DNA of 64,000 nucleotides, taken from the NCBI RefSeq assembly GCF_004143485.2, contig NZ_ML974135.1, forward strand, positions 132,286 to 196,285, written 5' to 3'. This DNA comes from Halorussus amylolyticus (GTDB lineage Archaea; Halobacteriota; Halobacteria; Halobacteriales; Haladaptataceae). The translations under genes were made by a program, and so were the position numbers. The notes below the pieces were generated by a model. It was not told where the DNA came from. It searched no databases and saw only the letters and a program-made list of their open reading frames with translations. Of the stretch, positions 49,454-57,084 are shown piece by piece; the stretch's first letter is position 1; each line of letters begins with the position of its first letter.

Positions 49454-50566
49454 CTAGTCGTCGGCCGGAGCCGATTCCGAACCGTCGTTGGCCGCCGTCG
49501 CGTTCTCTGCGCGACCCCCGTCGAGTTCGGCGTAGGGGTCGTACCCCTCTGCGCTCTCGAACAGGTGGCACGCGATGTCCTGGTCGGCGCCGGTGTCGGA
49601 CTTGGCTTCGAGCGGCGGCACCACTTGGTCGCACACGTCGCCGATGTACTTCGGACACCGGTCCTTGAACCGGCATCCGGTCGGCACGTCGATGACGTCG
49701 CCGACCTCGCCCTGGAGTTCGACGCGTTCGCGACCCACGTCGGGGTCGGGAACCGGCACGGCGTTGATGAGCGCCTGCGTGTAGGGGTGTTGGGGGTTCT
49801 CGATAATCTGGTCGGTCGGCCCCTTCTCCACGATTTTACCCATGTACATGATGGCGAGTCGGTCGCACATGTGACGCAGGAGCGAGAGGTCGTGGCTGAT
49901 GTAGACGACCGAGAGACCGAACTCCTCGGTCATCCGGTCGAGCAGCGACAGCACGCCCGCCCGCAGGCTCACGTCGAGCATCGACACCGGTTCGTCGGCC
50001 ACGATGAAGTCGGGGTCGAGCACGAGCGCCCGCGCGATGGCGACCCGCTGGCGCTGGCCGCCCGACAGTTCGTGGGGGTACTGGTCGAAGTAGTGCTCGG
50101 CGGGCATGAGTTCGGCGAACTCCAGCGCACGCTGGACCCGAGCGGTCTCGTTCCGGATGTCGTGGACCCGAAGCGGTTCGGCCACGATGTCGTACACCGT
50201 CATCCGGGGGTTGAGGCTCTCGAAGGGGTCCTGGAAAATCATCTGGGCGTTCTGGCGGAACTCCTTGATTTCCTCGTCGCTGGCCTCCGAGAGGCGCTTG
50301 TTGTTGTAGTGGATGTCGCCGTCGGTGGGTTCGTGAAGCTTCACCAGCGACATGCCGGTAGTGGTCTTGCCACATCCGGACTCGCCCGCGAGACCCAACG
50401 TCTCGCCTCGCTTGAGGTCGAACGAGACGCCGTCGACCGCGTGAACGTAGTCGGGGTCGTCACCGGTGACCGACTGGAGGAGACTCGCTATCCAGCCTTC
50501 GTCCACCTTGAAGTGCTTCTTCAGGTCGTCGACGTGAAGAATCACGTCGTCGTCGGTTTTACTCAT
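49454..50566 (-). CDS. dppF: Dipeptide/oligopeptide ABC transporter ATPase DppF
   Basis: 370-residue ATP-binding subunit. Walker [10 protein letters not shown], signature [11 protein letters not shown], Walker B FIVADEP, and the C-terminal oligopeptide-ATPase extension with [11 protein letters not shown]. Such C-terminal Cys can bind a [4Fe-4S] cluster in some Dpp ATPases; Cys in CRFKDRC and CDQ are seen. Last gene of the operon; its start is immediately after the DppD stop. Confidence 0.94.
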
Positions 50567-51616
50567 TTAGTCATCACCTGCCTGTGCGCCAGCGTTCTTC
50601 GCTGCGACGGTGTTCTCCCACGTCTCGGGGTCGTCGGCGTACGGTCGAAGCTCCTGGTCGATGTCCTCGGCGTAGTGACAGTACGTCCGGAGGTCGCCCA
50701 TCTCGTGTTCGGACGGGACCTCCTCGCGGCACCTGTCGGTCGCCATCGGGCACCGCTCGGCAAATCGACAGCCCTCCGGCGGGTCGATTAGCTCCGGCGG
50801 GTAGCCAGCGATGGAGAGCAGGTCCTGGTTCTCCATCCGGATGTTCGGGAACGCACGCTTCAGCCCGATGCTGTAGGGGTGGTAGGGGTTGTTGAAGATG
50901 TCCTCGACCGGTCCCTCCTCCGCGATTTGGCCAGCGTACATCACGATGACGCGGTCGCACGTCTCCGCGACCACGCTCACGTCGTGGGTGATGACCAGCA
51001 TCGAGGAGTTTATCTCGTCCTGAATCTGGCTGATGCGCTTCAGGATTTGGTCCTGCATGATGACGTCGAGCGCGGTGGTCGGCTCGTCGGCCAGCACGAG
51101 CGACGGGTCGAGCGCGAGCGACATCGCAATCATCGCGCGCTGGCGCATCCCGCCAGAGAACTGGTGGGGGTAGTCGTCGGCCCGTTCGGGGTCGAGGCCC
51201 ACGAGTTCGAACATCTCGGTCACGATTTCGTTCGACTCCACTCGCCCGGTCCCCGGTCGGTGGGTCTCGATGGCCTCCACGATTTGCTCGCGAATCGTGT
51301 ACACCGGGTCGAGACTGTTCATCGCCGACTGGGCAATCATCGAGATTTCTTCCCACTTGAGACGGCGGCGCTGCGCGCCGTTCATCTCGGTGAGGTCGTC
51401 GCCTTTGAAGTTGATGCTCCCGGCGTTGATGTAGCCCGCGTCGGGCAGAATCCCGATTATCGACTTCGCGAGCGTGGTCTTACCGCACCCGGACTCGCCG
51501 ACGATGCCGAGGTTCTCGCCCTCTTCGAGTTCGAACGAGACGCCGTCGACCGCCTGAGCGGGTCCTTGTTCCGTTTCGTAGTACACTTCGAGGTCTTCGA
51601 CTTCGAGTAGACTCAT
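50567..51616 (-). CDS. dppD: Dipeptide/oligopeptide ABC transporter ATPase DppD
   Basis: 349-residue ATP-binding subunit. Walker [11 protein letters not shown], signature FSGGMRQRAMIA, Walker B SLVLADEPTTALD, and the C-terminal GCRFAERCPMATDRC Cys motif. Forms a heterodimer with DppF. It overlaps DppC by four bases (ATGA) and abuts DppF. Confidence 0.94.
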   Translation of the reverse strand: MSLLEVEDLEVYYETEQGPAQAVDGVSFELEEGENLGIVGESGCGKTTLAKSIIGILPDAGYINAGSINFKGDDLTEMNGAQRRRLKWEEISMIAQSAMNSLDPVYTIREQIVEAIETHRPGTGRVESNEIVTEMFELVGLDPERADDYPHQFSGGMRQRAMIAMSLALDPSLVLADEPTTALDVIMQDQILKRISQIQDEINSSMLVITHDVSVVAETCDRVIVMYAGQIAEEGPVEDIFNNPYHPYSIGLKRAFPNIRMENQDLLSIAGYPPELIDPPEGCRFAERCPMATDRCREEVPSEHEMGDLRTYCHYAEDIDQELRPYADDPETWENTVAAKNAGAQAGDD

Positions 51617-52590
51617 TGTAGCTTGGGGTTAGTGATTTCTTCGTAGCCGCGGCCGATCAGGAAGCCGCTGATGACCAGTAGGCCGATGCAGATTCCCGGC
51701 GGCACGAACCACCACCACGCGCCGAACTGGAGCGCGGAGTACGCCCGCGAAGCCTGAAGCATCGTTCCCCACGACACGGTGTTGGGGTCTCCCAGACCGA
51801 TGAACGAGACGCCCGCTTCGGTGAGAATCGCCCACGCGATTGCGAACGACCCGTAGAGGAACGACATCGGAAGCACGTTCGGTGCGAGATGTCTGCTGAT
51901 TATGTGCCAGTCGCCCGCACCCGCCACTTCGGCCGCCTTGACGAACGGCCGTTCGCGAAGCGAGAGTGCTTGCGACCGGATGACACGCGCGGTCGAGCGC
52001 CACTGGAGAATTATCAGCGCGAAGATGATGTTCCAGAGGCTCGGCCCGAGCAACGCGACGAGGATGATGACCGTCGGGAGCATCGGCATCCCGTACAGGA
52101 AGTCGACGATGCGCATCAGCGCGTCGTCGATTTTCCCGCCGTAGTAGCCCGCGACTAGTCCGACCATCGTCCCGATGCCCGCGGTGAACACCGCCGCGAT
52201 GAGTCCGACGAGGAGCGCGGCGCGCGTCCCGTAGACGAGCTGGCTGAAGATGTCGAATCCCTCGGCCGTCGTTCCGAGGAGATAGCCGCTGTCGGCTCCC
52301 AACAGCGACGGTTCGGCCCACTTCAGGATGATGATTTCGGCGTCTGACTCGTACTGGCGTTGGAGCGGCGGGTTCTCCGTAATGTACGGGGCGATGACCG
52401 CCACGACCATGAAGAACGCCACCATGAGCATCGAGAGCTTGACCGACAGCTCGTCGGTCAGCAGCCCCCAGTGCTCGCTTAGCGTCTCGCGCCAGAGTCG
52501 AGCCGTCCGTTGCCACCGATTTATCTCTTCGCCGGAACCGCCGTCGTCGATGTCCGTGAATATCGAGCCTGTAGTTTCTTCTTGTGCCAT
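51613..52590 (-). CDS. dppC: Dipeptide/oligopeptide ABC transporter permease DppC
   Basis: 325-residue permease with a 50-residue cytoplasmic N terminus and six helices. The ABC interaction loop EVAGAGDWHIISRHLAPNV (EAA motif) and the family block LLGTTAEGFDIFSQLVYGTR are present. Pairs with DppB to form the channel. Confidence 0.93.
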   Translation of the reverse strand: MAQEETTGSIFTDIDDGGSGEEINRWQRTARLWRETLSEHWGLLTDELSVKLSMLMVAFFMVVAVIAPYITENPPLQRQYESDAEIIILKWAEPSLLGADSGYLLGTTAEGFDIFSQLVYGTRAALLVGLIAAVFTAGIGTMVGLVAGYYGGKIDDALMRIVDFLYGMPMLPTVIILVALLGPSLWNIIFALIILQWRSTARVIRSQALSLRERPFVKAAEVAGAGDWHIISRHLAPNVLPMSFLYGSFAIAWAILTEAGVSFIGLGDPNTVSWGTMLQASRAYSALQFGAWWWFVPPGICIGLLVISGFLIGRGYEEITNPKLQ

Positions 52591-52594
52591 GATT

Positions 52595-53572
52595 CTAGTC
52601 GTAGGTCACCCGCGGGTCGAGGTAGCCGTAGGCGAGGTCGGCGATGAAGTTCAGGATGATGATGGTCGCGGCCAGCACCATGAACGTTCCCTGCGCGACC
52701 GGGAAGTCACGGCGGAGCACCGCACGGACCATCTCCCGACCGATACCGGGCCACGCGAACACCGTCTCGATGAGCACGCTTCCGCCGACCGCGTAGCCGA
52801 GCGCGATTGCTGCGGCGGTGACGATGGGCAACAGCGCGTTTCGCGCGGCGTGCTTGAACATGATGGTGCGCTCTTTGAGGCCCTTCGCCCGGCACACGTC
52901 GATGAAGTCCTCGGAGAGAACTTCTAGCATGCTCGACCGCATGATGAGCAGCGGGTAGCCCATGAAGTAGTACGCCAGCACCAGCGCGGGTGCTGCGAGG
53001 TGTTGCAGGAAGTCCACCGAGGTTATCATAGCGAAGAAGCTCAGATTCGCCGTCCCAGCGCTGGTCATCCCGCTCATCGGGATAACGCCGAAACCCGCGC
53101 CGAATATCCAGAGCACCAACAGGCCGACGTAGAACGTCGGGACGCTCCGCGCGACCAGCGCGACGATGACCGCGGTGCGCTCGAAGCGCGACCCGCGATA
53201 CCATCCCGACAGCACGCCGAGCGTGATACCGGCGGCGTACGCGAGCACGAACGCCGTCAGCATCAAGACGAGCGTGTTCGGCAGGTACGTCGCAATTACT
53301 TCGCTCACCGGAGCGTTCGAGTGGAACGATTGACCGAAGTCCAGTACGACGATGTTCTGTAGGAACTTGATGTACTGGATGTGCATCGGTTCGTTGAGTC
53401 CGTAACTCGCGATAATCGCCTGGCGCGCCTCGGGCGTCATCGACGACGACACGATGTACGATGTCGGGTCGCCCGGCATCAGCCGGAACAGTCCGAACAG
53501 GACCGTCCCGACCGCCCAGAACGTCACCACGAGCTGGAGTGACCGTCTTACAACAAAGCTAGCTTTTCCCAT
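52595..53572 (-). CDS. dppB: Dipeptide/oligopeptide ABC transporter permease DppB
   Basis: 325-residue permease with six helices. Family blocks: RLMPGDPTSYIVSSSMTPE near the N terminus, LDFGQSFHSNAPVSEVI, and the EAA-type loop CRAKGLKERTIMFKHAARN. The stop is four bases from the dppC start. Preceded by a hairpin with a T tract after dppA. Confidence 0.93.
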   Translation of the reverse strand: MGKASFVVRRSLQLVVTFWAVGTVLFGLFRLMPGDPTSYIVSSSMTPEARQAIIASYGLNEPMHIQYIKFLQNIVVLDFGQSFHSNAPVSEVIATYLPNTLVLMLTAFVLAYAAGITLGVLSGWYRGSRFERTAVIVALVARSVPTFYVGLLVLWIFGAGFGVIPMSGMTSAGTANLSFFAMITSVDFLQHLAAPALVLAYYFMGYPLLIMRSSMLEVLSEDFIDVCRAKGLKERTIMFKHAARNALLPIVTAAAIALGYAVGGSVLIETVFAWPGIGREMVRAVLRRDFPVAQGTFMVLAATIIILNFIADLAYGYLDPRVTYD

Positions 53573-53645: not shown

Positions 53646-55367
53646 TTACTCGCTCGGGGCGACGAGCATGTCGTCGTCATTCCACGAGTAGCCCGCTTCT
53701 TCGAGGCGGCTCCGAGCCGCCTCGGGACTCTCCTCGTACTCGGTCACGTCTTCGGTGTGGAGCGGACCGAACGCCTCCGAGACGAGGTTGAAGCCGACTT
53801 CCGGGAAGCCGAACAGGACCTGGTCGACGATGGGCGTCCGCGGAATCGTCTCCACGAGCGCCTTGCGCATCTGCGCGTCGTCGAGGTAGTCCTCGCGCTC
53901 GTTGGGCGTGAACTTCCAGAACGTCGCGGCCGGGTTGCTTTCGACCGTGATGACGTCTTCGTCCTGATTCTCGTCGAGGCTGCGGTCGACACGACCGAAC
54001 GGCTCGTAGTTGAGGTCGCCGTTGATGAGGTTCTCCCACACGGTCGAGGCTTCGGGGATGATGCGCCAGAAGCGCTGCTCGAAGTCGACGGGTGCGAAGT
54101 GGTCCTCGAACTTCGTGAGACCGAACTCGCTGCCCTCGTTCCAGTAGTCGAACTGGAGCGGACCGCTGCCGACGGGCTCCTCGATGTTGGCCTGACTCGG
54201 CTCGTCGACATCTTCCCACTCGTGCTGGGGGATGATGGGAATCAGGTTCGCGACCGCGAGGTTGAACGGACCGAGCGGTTCGGACATGTTGATGCGGACC
54301 GTCTCCTCGTCGACGACTTCCGCGCCTTCGAGGTAGCTCGTCTGCGTCGAGTAGAGCGGGACCTCGTTGTCGTTGATGTAGTTGTACGTGAACGCGACGT
54401 CCTCGGCGGTGAGGTCTTCGCCGTCGTGCCACGAGTGGTCGGTGCGGATGGTGTACTCGATGGTGGTCTCGTCCACGCGCTCGAAGTCGGTGGCGAGGCT
54501 CACGTCGTGGTCGATTTCGCCCTCGTTGTTGAGCTGGACCAGTTTGTCGTACATCACGTTGAACTGGTAGACGTGCTTGCTCTCGTCGTTGTGGCCGAGC
54601 ACGTTCATGGTCGAGAGCGTCTCGGGCCAGTAGCCCTTGAGGGTGTCCTCGTCACCCTGCATCTCGAGGTTAATCATGGTCCAGTAGGAGTTGTACCCGT
54701 TGGCCAGGTCCGACTGCCAGTTGTCGACCTGCTCGTTGTTGTAGATGGCCAACTGCGGCATGTGCGTGATGGGCATCATGGGCACGTCGTCCATCAGCGT
54801 CTGCTGGATTTCGTGGCACTGCTCGATACGAGTGTCCTCGTCGGGTTCCGCGAGGTAGCTCGACATCAGCTCGTCCACGTCGGGGTTCTCGTAGCCCGAG
54901 TAGTTCCCGTCGCCGGGGTCGGTGTTGTCGGAGTTGAACAGGTTGTTCAGTTCCGTCACCGGCTCGGAGACGAAGAACGTGTGCCACGTCGCGAAGCTGT
55001 AGTCGTACTCCTCGGACACGCGGCTGAACAGGGTACCCCATTCGAGCACGTCGACTTCAACATCGAGGCCGATGTCGCCGAACTGGTCGGCGATGATGTT
55101 AATCGCGTCGTGTCGGGGCGGGTTGTAGCTCTGCGCGTTGTTGACGTACGTGTACGTCGGGAGCGTCTCGCCCGAGCCACCGTCGTCGCCGCCGGAGTCC
55201 TCGGTCGTCTCGTCGCCACCGGTATCGTCGCCACCGGAGTCTTCTGTCGTCTCATCGTCCTGACCGCCGCCACCTGAGCAGCCAGCCAGTGCAGTCATGC
55301 CGACCATGCCGCCCGCGGTGGTCGCTTTCAGGAAATCTCGCCGTTTCAAATCGTCTGACTTCGCCAT
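53646..55367 (-). CDS. dppA: Circularly permuted dipeptide-binding lipoprotein (SBP_bac_5, DppA-like)
   Basis: 573-residue lipoprotein. Twin-arginine signal LKRRDFLKATTAGG with lipobox LAGC (Cys30), then an acidic Ser/Gly/Asp/Glu linker. The halves are in reversed order. Residues 69-235 match the usual C-terminal part of DppA proteins (IGLDVEVDVLEWGTLFSRV, NYSGYENPDVDELM, DDVPMMPITHMP). Residues 241-573 match the usual N-terminal part (YDKLVQLNNEGEI, WHDGEDLTAEDVAFTYN, PVGSGPLQFDYW) and end at LEEAGYSWNDDDM, the point where a normal protein would continue into the residue-69 sequence. Start at 55367 is preferred over 55379 because the TATTTTT-region promoter would begin transcription near 55372. 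First gene of the operon. Confidence 0.92.
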   Translation of the reverse strand: MAKSDDLKRRDFLKATTAGGMVGMTALAGCSGGGGQDDETTEDSGGDDTGGDETTEDSGGDDGGSGETLPTYTYVNNAQSYNPPRHDAINIIADQFGDIGLDVEVDVLEWGTLFSRVSEEYDYSFATWHTFFVSEPVTELNNLFNSDNTDPGDGNYSGYENPDVDELMSSYLAEPDEDTRIEQCHEIQQTLMDDVPMMPITHMPQLAIYNNEQVDNWQSDLANGYNSYWTMINLEMQGDEDTLKGYWPETLSTMNVLGHNDESKHVYQFNVMYDKLVQLNNEGEIDHDVSLATDFERVDETTIEYTIRTDHSWHDGEDLTAEDVAFTYNYINDNEVPLYSTQTSYLEGAEVVDEETVRINMSEPLGPFNLAVANLIPIIPQHEWEDVDEPSQANIEEPVGSGPLQFDYWNEGSEFGLTKFEDHFAPVDFEQRFWRIIPEASTVWENLINGDLNYEPFGRVDRSLDENQDEDVITVESNPAATFWKFTPNEREDYLDDAQMRKALVETIPRTPIVDQVLFGFPEVGFNLVSEAFGPLHTEDVTEYEESPEAARSRLEEAGYSWNDDDMLVAPSE

Positions 55368-55394
55368 GGAACGTGACATCGTTACACAAGCGCC

Positions 55395-55402: not shown

Positions 55403-55731
55403 CCTACCGATAGTTAAAAACGGCAGGAAGCAAATTGCCGAATATCGGCGTCGTAAGCGTCTAAAAATTATATTTTTCGGCCAATTTAATAAGGATTATC
55501 TATGTCCAAATGTGTTTCGGTACTCGAAGCGCGGAGAGGTTCGAACGCCGAACCGTCTCGTATGTCTCGACACCGAAACGAGCGACGAAAACACAATCAC
55601 CGCGAGACGCCGCACGAACGCCGAACGTCAGGTGACCGACGGCGATACCAAGGCCAAACTCTGACGAGACGAGGCTACCGCTAACCAAATGACCATGTAG
55701 GTAGTCTCCCTTGCTCCAGTCGTCTTCAACG
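55403..55731. other. Divergent spacer between the dpp operon and the M28 gene
   Basis: AT-rich centre (55455-55500) with a TTATATT box (55468-55474) that would start transcription near 55499. There is no box close to the M28 ATG at 55732, so that gene probably has a leader of about 230 bases with a short ORF in it. Confidence 0.4.
55502..55684 (+). CDS. Possible short upstream ORF (60 residues)
   Basis: ATG is 28 bases after a TTATATT box, giving ideal leaderless spacing. The product is 60 residues, very Arg/His-rich and unlike the acidic haloarchaeal proteome, which argues against a stable protein. It could be a translated leader ahead of the M28 gene. Confidence 0.25.
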   Translation: MSKCVSVLEARRGSNAEPSRMSRHRNERRKHNHRETPHERRTSGDRRRYQGQTLTRRGYR

Positions 55732-57084
55732 ATGTCAACACTACCGACCACGCTCGTCGGCGACGCGTACACCAGCACCCACACGTGGGACCTGCTCTGT
55801 GACCTCGTCGATATCGACAATCGGATGGCGGGACAGCAAGGCGAAGCCGATGGGGCCGAGCTCGTAAAGGACGCCTTCGAGGAACACGGCTTCCGCGACG
55901 CGTCTATCAACGAGTTCGGCATTCCGGGATGGTGGCGCGGGTCGTGTTCGCTCACCGTCGAACCCGACCGGACCCACACCTTCGACGAGCGGTTCGAGAT
56001 GGTCGAACTGCCGGGGACCCCGAGCGGCGAAGTGGACGCCGAAATCGTGGACGTGGGGGACGGCCTTCCGAAGGACTTCGAGGGCGCGGACCTCGACGGG
56101 AAAATCGTGATGGCGTCGAGCGTCACCCCCGACGACTACGGCCGGTGGATTCACCGAGCCGAGAAGTACGGCGCGGCCGCGAAGGCCGGGGCCGCCGCGT
56201 TCCTGTTCCGAAACCACATCGAGGGCTGTCTCCCGCCGACCGGGAGCATCGGCAACGAGGACGGTCCCGGCCCGATTCCGGCGGTCGGCGTCTCCAAGGA
56301 AGTCGGCGACCGACTCGTCCGGTACTGCGAGGACGGCCCGATAGACGCCGAACTCTCCGTGGAGTGTCGCAACGAACCCGCCACCTCGCGAAACATCGAA
56401 GCGGTCATCGGACCCGACACCGACGAGGAGGTCCTGCTGACCGCGCACGTGGACGCCCACGACGTGGGCGAGGGCGCGAACGACAACGGCGTCGGCACCG
56501 TCCTCGTCTCGGAGGTGGGCCGCCTGCTGACCCAAATCGAGGACGACCTCGAAACCAAGGTCCGCCTGCTCGTGTTCGGTTCGGAGGAGGTCGGCCTGTT
56601 CGGCGCGTACCACTGGGCCGACACCCACGACCCCGAGCAGGTCAAGTGCATCGTCAACATCGACGGCGCGGGCTACTCCCGGAACCTCGACATCCACACC
56701 CACGGTTTCGACGCCATCGGCGACGCCTTCGAGGAGGTCAGCGACGAACTCGGGATTCCCATCCGAGTGAACTCGGGTATTCGACCCCACAGCGACCACT
56801 GGCCGTTCGTCCAGAAGGGCATCGCGGGATGTCAGGCCCGCTCGACCTCCGAGGGGAGCGGTCGCGGCTGGGGCCACACGCACGGCGACACCCTCGACAA
56901 ACTCGACCTTCGGGACTTCCGCGAACTCGCGGTGGGTCTCGCTGGCGGCGTCGTCAAACTCGCCGAGGAGGACCGTACCGTCGAACACAAGCCGGTCGCG
57001 GAGATTCGAGACGCCACCGTCGAGCAGGGCTACGAGGAGGGCATGCGAAACACGGATAGCTGGCCGTTCGACGACGTGGAATGA
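55732..57084 (+). CDS. M28-family metallopeptidase with inserted PA domain
   Basis: 450-residue zinc aminopeptidase-like protein. A PA-type insertion (about residues 100-210) precedes the catalytic core. Zinc ligands: TAHVDAHDVGEGANDNG (His, Asp), FGSEEVGLFGAYHW (catalytic Glu pair), NIDGAGY (Asp) and a late His in RPHSDHWPF or GHTHGDTLDKL. No signal peptide is seen, so it is likely cytoplasmic. Next to the Dpp importer it probably degrades imported peptides. Confidence 0.88.
   Translation: MSTLPTTLVGDAYTSTHTWDLLCDLVDIDNRMAGQQGEADGAELVKDAFEEHGFRDASINEFGIPGWWRGSCSLTVEPDRTHTFDERFEMVELPGTPSGEVDAEIVDVGDGLPKDFEGADLDGKIVMASSVTPDDYGRWIHRAEKYGAAAKAGAAAFLFRNHIEGCLPPTGSIGNEDGPGPIPAVGVSKEVGDRLVRYCEDGPIDAELSVECRNEPATSRNIEAVIGPDTDEEVLLTAHVDAHDVGEGANDNGVGTVLVSEVGRLLTQIEDDLETKVRLLVFGSEEVGLFGAYHWADTHDPEQVKCIVNIDGAGYSRNLDIHTHGFDAIGDAFEEVSDELGIPIRVNSGIRPHSDHWPFVQKGIAGCQARSTSEGSGRGWGHTHGDTLDKLDLRDFRELAVGLAGGVVKLAEEDRTVEHKPVAEIRDATVEQGYEEGMRNTDSWPFDDVE

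Follow-up and report, generated by a model that had tools for sequence, protein, structure and literature searches.

Circularly permuted substrate-binding proteins in the SBP_bac_5 family of ABC importers: a haloarchaeal example and its archaeal and bacterial relatives

The stretch of 64,000 nucleotides from Halorussus amylolyticus analysed here (referred to as the window) contains a gene, P0001, coding for a substrate-binding protein of the SBP_bac_5 family whose two halves appear to stand in the wrong order. This raises the questions of whether a circularly permuted binding protein is indeed encoded at this locus, whether it can still serve an ABC importer, and how such a chain order may have arisen. 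Circular permutation of binding proteins is a standard trick of protein engineering, and natural cases are few. The initial annotation of the locus had postulated a functional permuted protein in an otherwise normal dpp operon, broken at one clean point without loss of sequence and carrying its membrane anchor in the middle of lobe II. The gene, its parts and its neighbours are listed in Table 1; an alternative start of P0001 is provided by an in-frame ATG at 55379, which would extend the protein by four amino acids. As judged from the sequence, the N-terminus carries a twin-arginine motif followed by a lipobox (KRRDFL ... LAGC), which recur in the homologues, and Cys30 is the predicted lipidated residue; the Pfam model TAT_signal scores 18.5 bits, which is under its cut-off of 22.7. 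Signal peptide, lipobox and linker are all located on the new N-terminus.

Table 1. Position of P0001, its sequence parts and neighbouring genes in the window
Feature	Coordinates	Strand	Remarks
Permuted substrate-binding protein, P0001	53646..55367	-	573 aa starting with MAKS; stop codon 53646-53648
P0001 residues 1-30: Tat signal KRRDFL and lipobox LAGC	55278..55367	-	from sequence; homologues with the same motifs
P0001 residues 31-68: acidic low-complexity linker, predicted disordered	55164..55277	-	pLDDT < 50 for residues 16-64
P0001 residues ~69-236: second half of lobe II and return into lobe I	54660..55163	-	DppA mature ~347-507; canonical profile ~342-492
P0001 residues ~237-240: short new linker from old C-terminus to old N-terminus	54648..54659	-	from alignments
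P0001 residues 241-573: lobe I and first half of lobe II	53649..54647	-	DppA mature 1-346; canonical profile ~5-332
DppB-type permease	52595..53572	-	BPD_transp_1 and BPD_transp_1_N
DppC-type permease	51613..52590	-	BPD_transp_1
DppD-type ATPase	50567..51616	-	ABC_tran and oligo_HPY
DppF-type ATPase	49454..50566	-	ABC_tran and oligo_HPY
M28 peptidase with PA domain, divergent neighbour of P0001 (context)	55711..57084	+	domain match

All segments quoted in the initial annotation as evidence for two halves in swapped order are present in P0001 and follow each other as quoted, and the alignments to DppA, to Pfam and to solved structures agree with this reading. With phmmer, residues 273-561 of P0001 align to positions 61-369 of the E. 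coli DppA precursor (47.5 bits) and residues 79-203 to positions 383-506 (16.6 bits, i-E 1.5e-7), while BLASTP returns the same two swapped blocks with E values of 2e-18 and 8e-8. The Pfam model SBP_bac_5 (PF00496) matches with 179.4 bits (cut-off 32.4), its larger stretch placing residues 291-567 of P0001 on profile positions 6-285 of 368, and in the source genome matches to the end of this profile (280-366) are found upstream of those to its start within one reading frame. The best matches in the PDB (AppA 1xoc, NikZ 8efz, 5u4o) all consist of two swapped blocks as well, and a canonical-order profile of 497 positions, built from 45 canonical rows, aligns to P0001 with its positions 342-492 in front and 5-332 at the back. 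P0001 contains both lobes of the fold with every segment, but the segments depart from the canonical N-to-C order, and because of its swapped order P0001 should be regarded as a permuted variant of SBP_bac_5 instead of a standard member. The swapped blocks place the join at the N-terminus of mature DppA and the break after about DppA position 346; in P0001 this break follows an 'AAxxxLEEAGY' helix with a short hairpin, residues 241-573 ending in AGYSWNDDDMLVAPSE, and precedes the strand running towards the binding cleft. The permuted order is absent from all PDB chains listed for cluster C or the SBP_bac_5 family.

Structure prediction, one of the checks proposed for the permutation, yielded a complete and confident fold from permuted homologues only: AlphaFold2, run without templates on 21 aligned permuted sequences, produced a model of P0001 with a mean pLDDT of 83.9 and a pTM of 0.82, in which 329 residues reach values of at least 90 and values below 50 are restricted to the signal, the linker and residues 79-81. 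Alignment of the model with VIA-align retrieved AppA, NikZ, NikA, AccA, YliB and DppA with Z scores of 21-25 over about 300-330 residues, covering the region ~235-573, and residues 241-571 fit onto residues 1-346 of mature DppA (1dpp, Z 22). Since model residue 241 falls on DppA residue 1 and model residue 571 on DppA residue 346, the postulated single break without any loss is also borne out. These matches to solved folds cover only the larger block, and the placement of residues 69-236 relies on sequence and on the confidence of the model.

Proteins of permuted SBP_bac_5 order with the same break as P0001 are referred to as type A. They occur in haloarchaea, in one Thermoproteota archaeon and in at least six bacterial phyla. 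An order check confirmed the permuted form for representatives from Alpha-, Beta- and Gammaproteobacteria, Desulfobacterales, Trueperaceae and Atribacterota, and also from Clostridia, Brevibacillus, a Micromonosporaceae MAG and a Desulfurococcaceae archaeon; because some of the bacterial type A loci derive from MAGs, individual taxon names are to be treated with caution. Other hosts are Haloferax denitrificans, with a homologue at L074, and Aliihoeflea and Pararhodobacter, whose type A proteins are taken to be soluble. The source genome alone encodes about six permuted and five canonical SBP_bac_5 proteins, and matches spanning both parts in the permuted order were obtained from at least about 75 genomes in a sample of 145 from the class (type B, described below, included), so that the haloarchaeal search suggested in the initial annotation finds the same order to be common. 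Matches with E <= 1e-75, all of them spanning, were present in 5 of 58 alphaproteobacterial genomes (centres included) and in 9 of 101 genomes of the Bacillota group (centres and type C included).

Several type A loci show individual features. Haloarchaeal tandem pairs of permuted binding proteins, without any Dpp permease detected nearby, are found at L139, L140 (4929-9445) and L141, and a gene for a PAP2-like membrane phosphatase lies between the two permuted genes of L140. A paralogue in the source genome (L039 / L146, C1:674595-676277), which is 69% identical to P0001, has lost the lipobox cysteine, and no Dpp partners of it were detected. An Atribacterota MAG carries a canonical binding-protein operon and a type A operon back to back (L056, 1-12565). 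The type A gene of L016 (767-2487) contains a frameshift just after the old N-terminal strand which separates its front and back parts; its interpretation as a gene split at the junction was rejected because of this frameshift.

It may be asked whether a canonical order has simply been misread, with repeats, low complexity or chance similarity mimicking a permutation. The C-part alone indeed scores modestly against single distant proteins, as seen from its low bit score with DppA, but each block significantly matches DppA, many PDB chains and the profiles, and the same two profiles divide the loci cleanly into 77 permuted and 43 canonical ones. Moreover, no spanning match was listed for 51 genomes from the other, non-haloarchaeal classes of the phylum, in which both parts, where found, stand in canonical order, and canonical proteins cannot join a full-length alignment of permuted homologues colinearly, which already refutes a misreading and leaves virtually no room for it. 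The type A homologues are of full length and colinear with P0001, and as their order is kept down to about 24% identity, it is caused neither by chance nor by an assembly join. An artefact of assembly or cloning, or a pseudogene resulting from a local rearrangement, could still be suspected from the one homologue that is frameshifted near the junction (L016). Yet genes with the same break are intact across many genera and several phyla, in closed as well as draft genomes, the operons are intact, and the dN/dS values of 0.16-0.37 for the P0001 gene against four relatives indicate purifying selection; this explanation is likewise refuted by the independent genomes and can be dismissed almost with certainty.

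Three further permuted architectures were recognized. Type B, first noticed as two haloarchaeal rows among canonical proteins, is found in haloarchaea (L026, L090, L128-L138) directly upstream of DppB-DppC-DppD; its 'AEELIxxGF' helix is located at the N-terminus, not at the C-terminus, which puts the break about 20-25 positions earlier than in type A. AlphaFold2 modelling of a type B protein from only 13 close sequences gave a poor model, with a pLDDT of 52 and a pTM of 0.39, on which no conclusion is based. Type C is represented in the Bacillota group by a permuted gene in twelve genomes (entries L164-L175, L182-L186 and L189), with canonical-order counterparts (L176-L181) in other genomes. 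Its proteins end with '...YDPEKAKxLLxEAGY' plus two residues and restart at the next strand, and L164, once re-ordered, shares 53-55% identity over its whole length with the canonical proteins L176-L179, both halves being alike. Type C loci and these canonical sisters share the gene order SBP-DppB-DppC-DppD, whereas the sisters show the normal chain order and have DppF in line where seen; several type C loci carry a DppF-like gene upstream in divergent orientation. Type D consists of one gene in an intact DppB-C-D-F operon of the Dethiosulfatibacter aminovorans genome (L162 / L187); its break lies in the loop between NKFEKQ and NDNPLSDVRVRQA, about 70 profile positions earlier, and is seen in this one genome only.

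P0001 is encoded together with BPD_transp_1 permeases and oligo_HPY ATPases (window 49454-53572), and the binding-protein gene of nearly every type A locus directly precedes that for DppB, followed by C, D and F. Genes of peptidase type adjoin several type A operons, coding for M28 (window, L052), M19 (L064), GGT/gamma-glutamyltranspeptidase (L058, L063) and TldD/PmbA (L048) proteins, suggesting that the solute is probably a peptide or a related compound; the neighbour at L052 is again an M28/PA gene adjoining the permuted operon. The dipeptide bound by DppA is held by R383 and D436 (precursor numbers; PMC12136057). The residues of P0001 aligned to these positions are Q79 and F132; Asp seldom occupies the D436 column in any of the groups, the canonical ones included, and the NCBIfam model for DppA assigns P0001 only 64.5 bits (cut-off 1005). 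As the residues anchoring the dipeptide in DppA are absent, the substrate remains open and 'DppA-type' must not be equated with dipeptide-binding: this label and that of a 'dpp operon', both used in the initial annotation, are adequate for the fold and the transporter family, but not for a demonstrated substrate.

Phylogenetic trees were calculated by quick searches and contain long branches; those of the binding proteins rest on de-permuted alignments, in which all proteins had been brought into canonical order. The type A rows fall on one side of a branch in the SBP tree with modest support (69-80); the canonical protein L042, which has a very long branch, was placed between them in the initial tree and omitted from later ones. 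In a concatenated tree of DppB and DppC, from which the binding proteins were excluded, the type A permeases form one clade (starred support of 99). Type C is nested with canonical proteins (starred support of 99) and type D pairs with a canonical protein (starred support of 100). The combined tree requires four changes of order, and the starred branches force four. The canonical order is taken here as ancestral, which is inferred from its presence in the solved relatives. Type A is best explained as an old, single lineage with its own permease lineage, which has spread over archaea and bacteria.

These data also bear on two further alternatives, namely that the permuted proteins have ceased to be transporter receptors, or that they all go back to one event. 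A role as sensor, scaffold or heterodimer partner could be inferred from the divergent haloarchaeal type A subgroup in tandem pairs lacking a detectable Dpp permease nearby, and from the paralogue L039 without lipobox or detected Dpp partner. However, the gene in the window and nearly all other genes of types A, B, C and D are located directly before genes for DppB-type permeases, and the type A permeases constitute a clade of their own, which renders a loss of the receptor function very unlikely. We are highly confident that P0001 is a Tat-exported lipoprotein with a circularly permuted chain which works as the receptor of an ABC importer from the peptide/nickel family (cluster C, SBP_bac_5), although, without any experiment, its folding, anchoring, binding of a ligand and role in transport are inferences. 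That it functions as postulated, within a DppBCDF-type operon that is otherwise normal, is upheld as an inference from sequence, structure prediction, purifying selection, gene context and phylogenetic spread. A single tandem-fused ancestor, trimmed differently in the various lineages, with the canonical 'sisters' being either misplaced or reverted, would be consistent with the breaks of types A, B and C lying within about 30 residues of one another, and a common group of types A and B is not rejected in the SBP tree (AU p 0.177). The same grouping is rejected for the permeases (AU p 0.0004), as is a clade of types A and C (AU p 1e-44), and neither the end-to-end identity of L164 to four canonical proteins and the nesting of type C among them, nor the distant break of type D and its canonical partner, agree with a common origin, which appears highly improbable. 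P0001 belongs to a large, mostly undescribed multi-phylum group and permutation has happened repeatedly, which goes beyond the initial annotation. We consider it very likely that this very common family of ABC-importer binding proteins has been permuted at least four times independently, each time with its own break, from the ancient multi-phylum type A to the recent type C with its sisters of about 55% identity, that the anchor may sit on either lobe of a working fold, and that evolution can alter both chain order and anchor position.

The textbook route to permutation, in which SBP genes are duplicated in tandem, fused and then trimmed, likely gave rise to the permuted forms, without any intermediate having been found: no tandem-fused gene of the N-C-N-C type was seen among the loci examined. 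A frame of 1336 aa at L147 was considered as such a fused intermediate and rejected, as it represents a type A gene read together with an upstream frame.

The chain of DppA forms lobe I from both of its ends, with lobe II inserted. Transferred to the permuted proteins, this topology would place the break in a surface loop of lobe II, and lobe I of type A proteins would become one continuous central unit, with lobe II assembled from both chain ends. The two lobes of P0001 are best read as having exchanged their topological roles. The permuted chain would still cross the hinge twice, so that a Venus-flytrap closure should be kept. Because signal, lipobox and linker join the strand which bears R383 in DppA, the tether should enter lobe II near the cleft, and the membrane anchor would be attached beside this ligand-contacting strand, instead of entering lobe I. 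That the anchor lies midway through lobe II, as proposed, is inferred from the alignment together with the known lobe boundaries of DppA. P0001 would then be exported in a folded state by the Tat system, become lipidated at Cys30, and may capture an as yet unidentified solute and hand it over to the co-encoded DppB/C/D/F machine.

A natural series of permutations within one SBP family, which runs from an ancient case to a recent one and comprises proteins of tractable organisms whose partners are known, makes it testable whether folding order, Tat versus Sec export, the position of the lipid anchor or the handover to the permease limit the wiring of binding proteins, and the permuted and canonical pairs of type C come close to a matched natural experiment. 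If our interpretation is true, the same SBP fold tolerates an anchor on either lobe, and chain order would be an evolvable trait in ABC import. Domain-based annotation hides such proteins under the plain name 'ABC transporter substrate-binding protein', which the permuted genes also carry in public plasmid annotation.

P0001 shares with the known members of cluster C / SBP_bac_5 (DppA, OppA, AppA, NikA, NikZ) a common sequence family, both halves of the fold, the link to DppBCDF-type transporters and the character of a secreted receptor, but differs from them in its permuted chain, in the inferred entry of the anchor into lobe II, and in Q79 and F132 replacing R383 and D436. No report of a circular permutation in the SBP_bac_5 family was found in a literature search limited to open-licence papers, which is not a proof of novelty. 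The sole natural permutation of a substrate-binding protein found in the same literature is that of TpMglB-2 (Tp0684) from Treponema pallidum, a functional lipoprotein with relatives in other species, classified as 'Type Ic / Cluster Bc' (PMC4990184). This protein belongs to Type I / cluster B (glucose), its break generates a fourth hinge crossing, and its permutation was suggested by the authors as a possible adaptation to tethering (PMC4990184). Tethering was rejected as a general cause of type A, since a lipobox is missing from many of the type A proteins in bacteria: Tat lipoproteins dominate among the haloarchaeal ones, and many of those from Gram-negative bacteria carry cleavable, non-lipid signals, indicating that tethering is not required. 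Finally, P0001 differs from TpMglB-2 in the class of binding protein, as indicated by its family and fold matches to cluster C, and in the position of the break.
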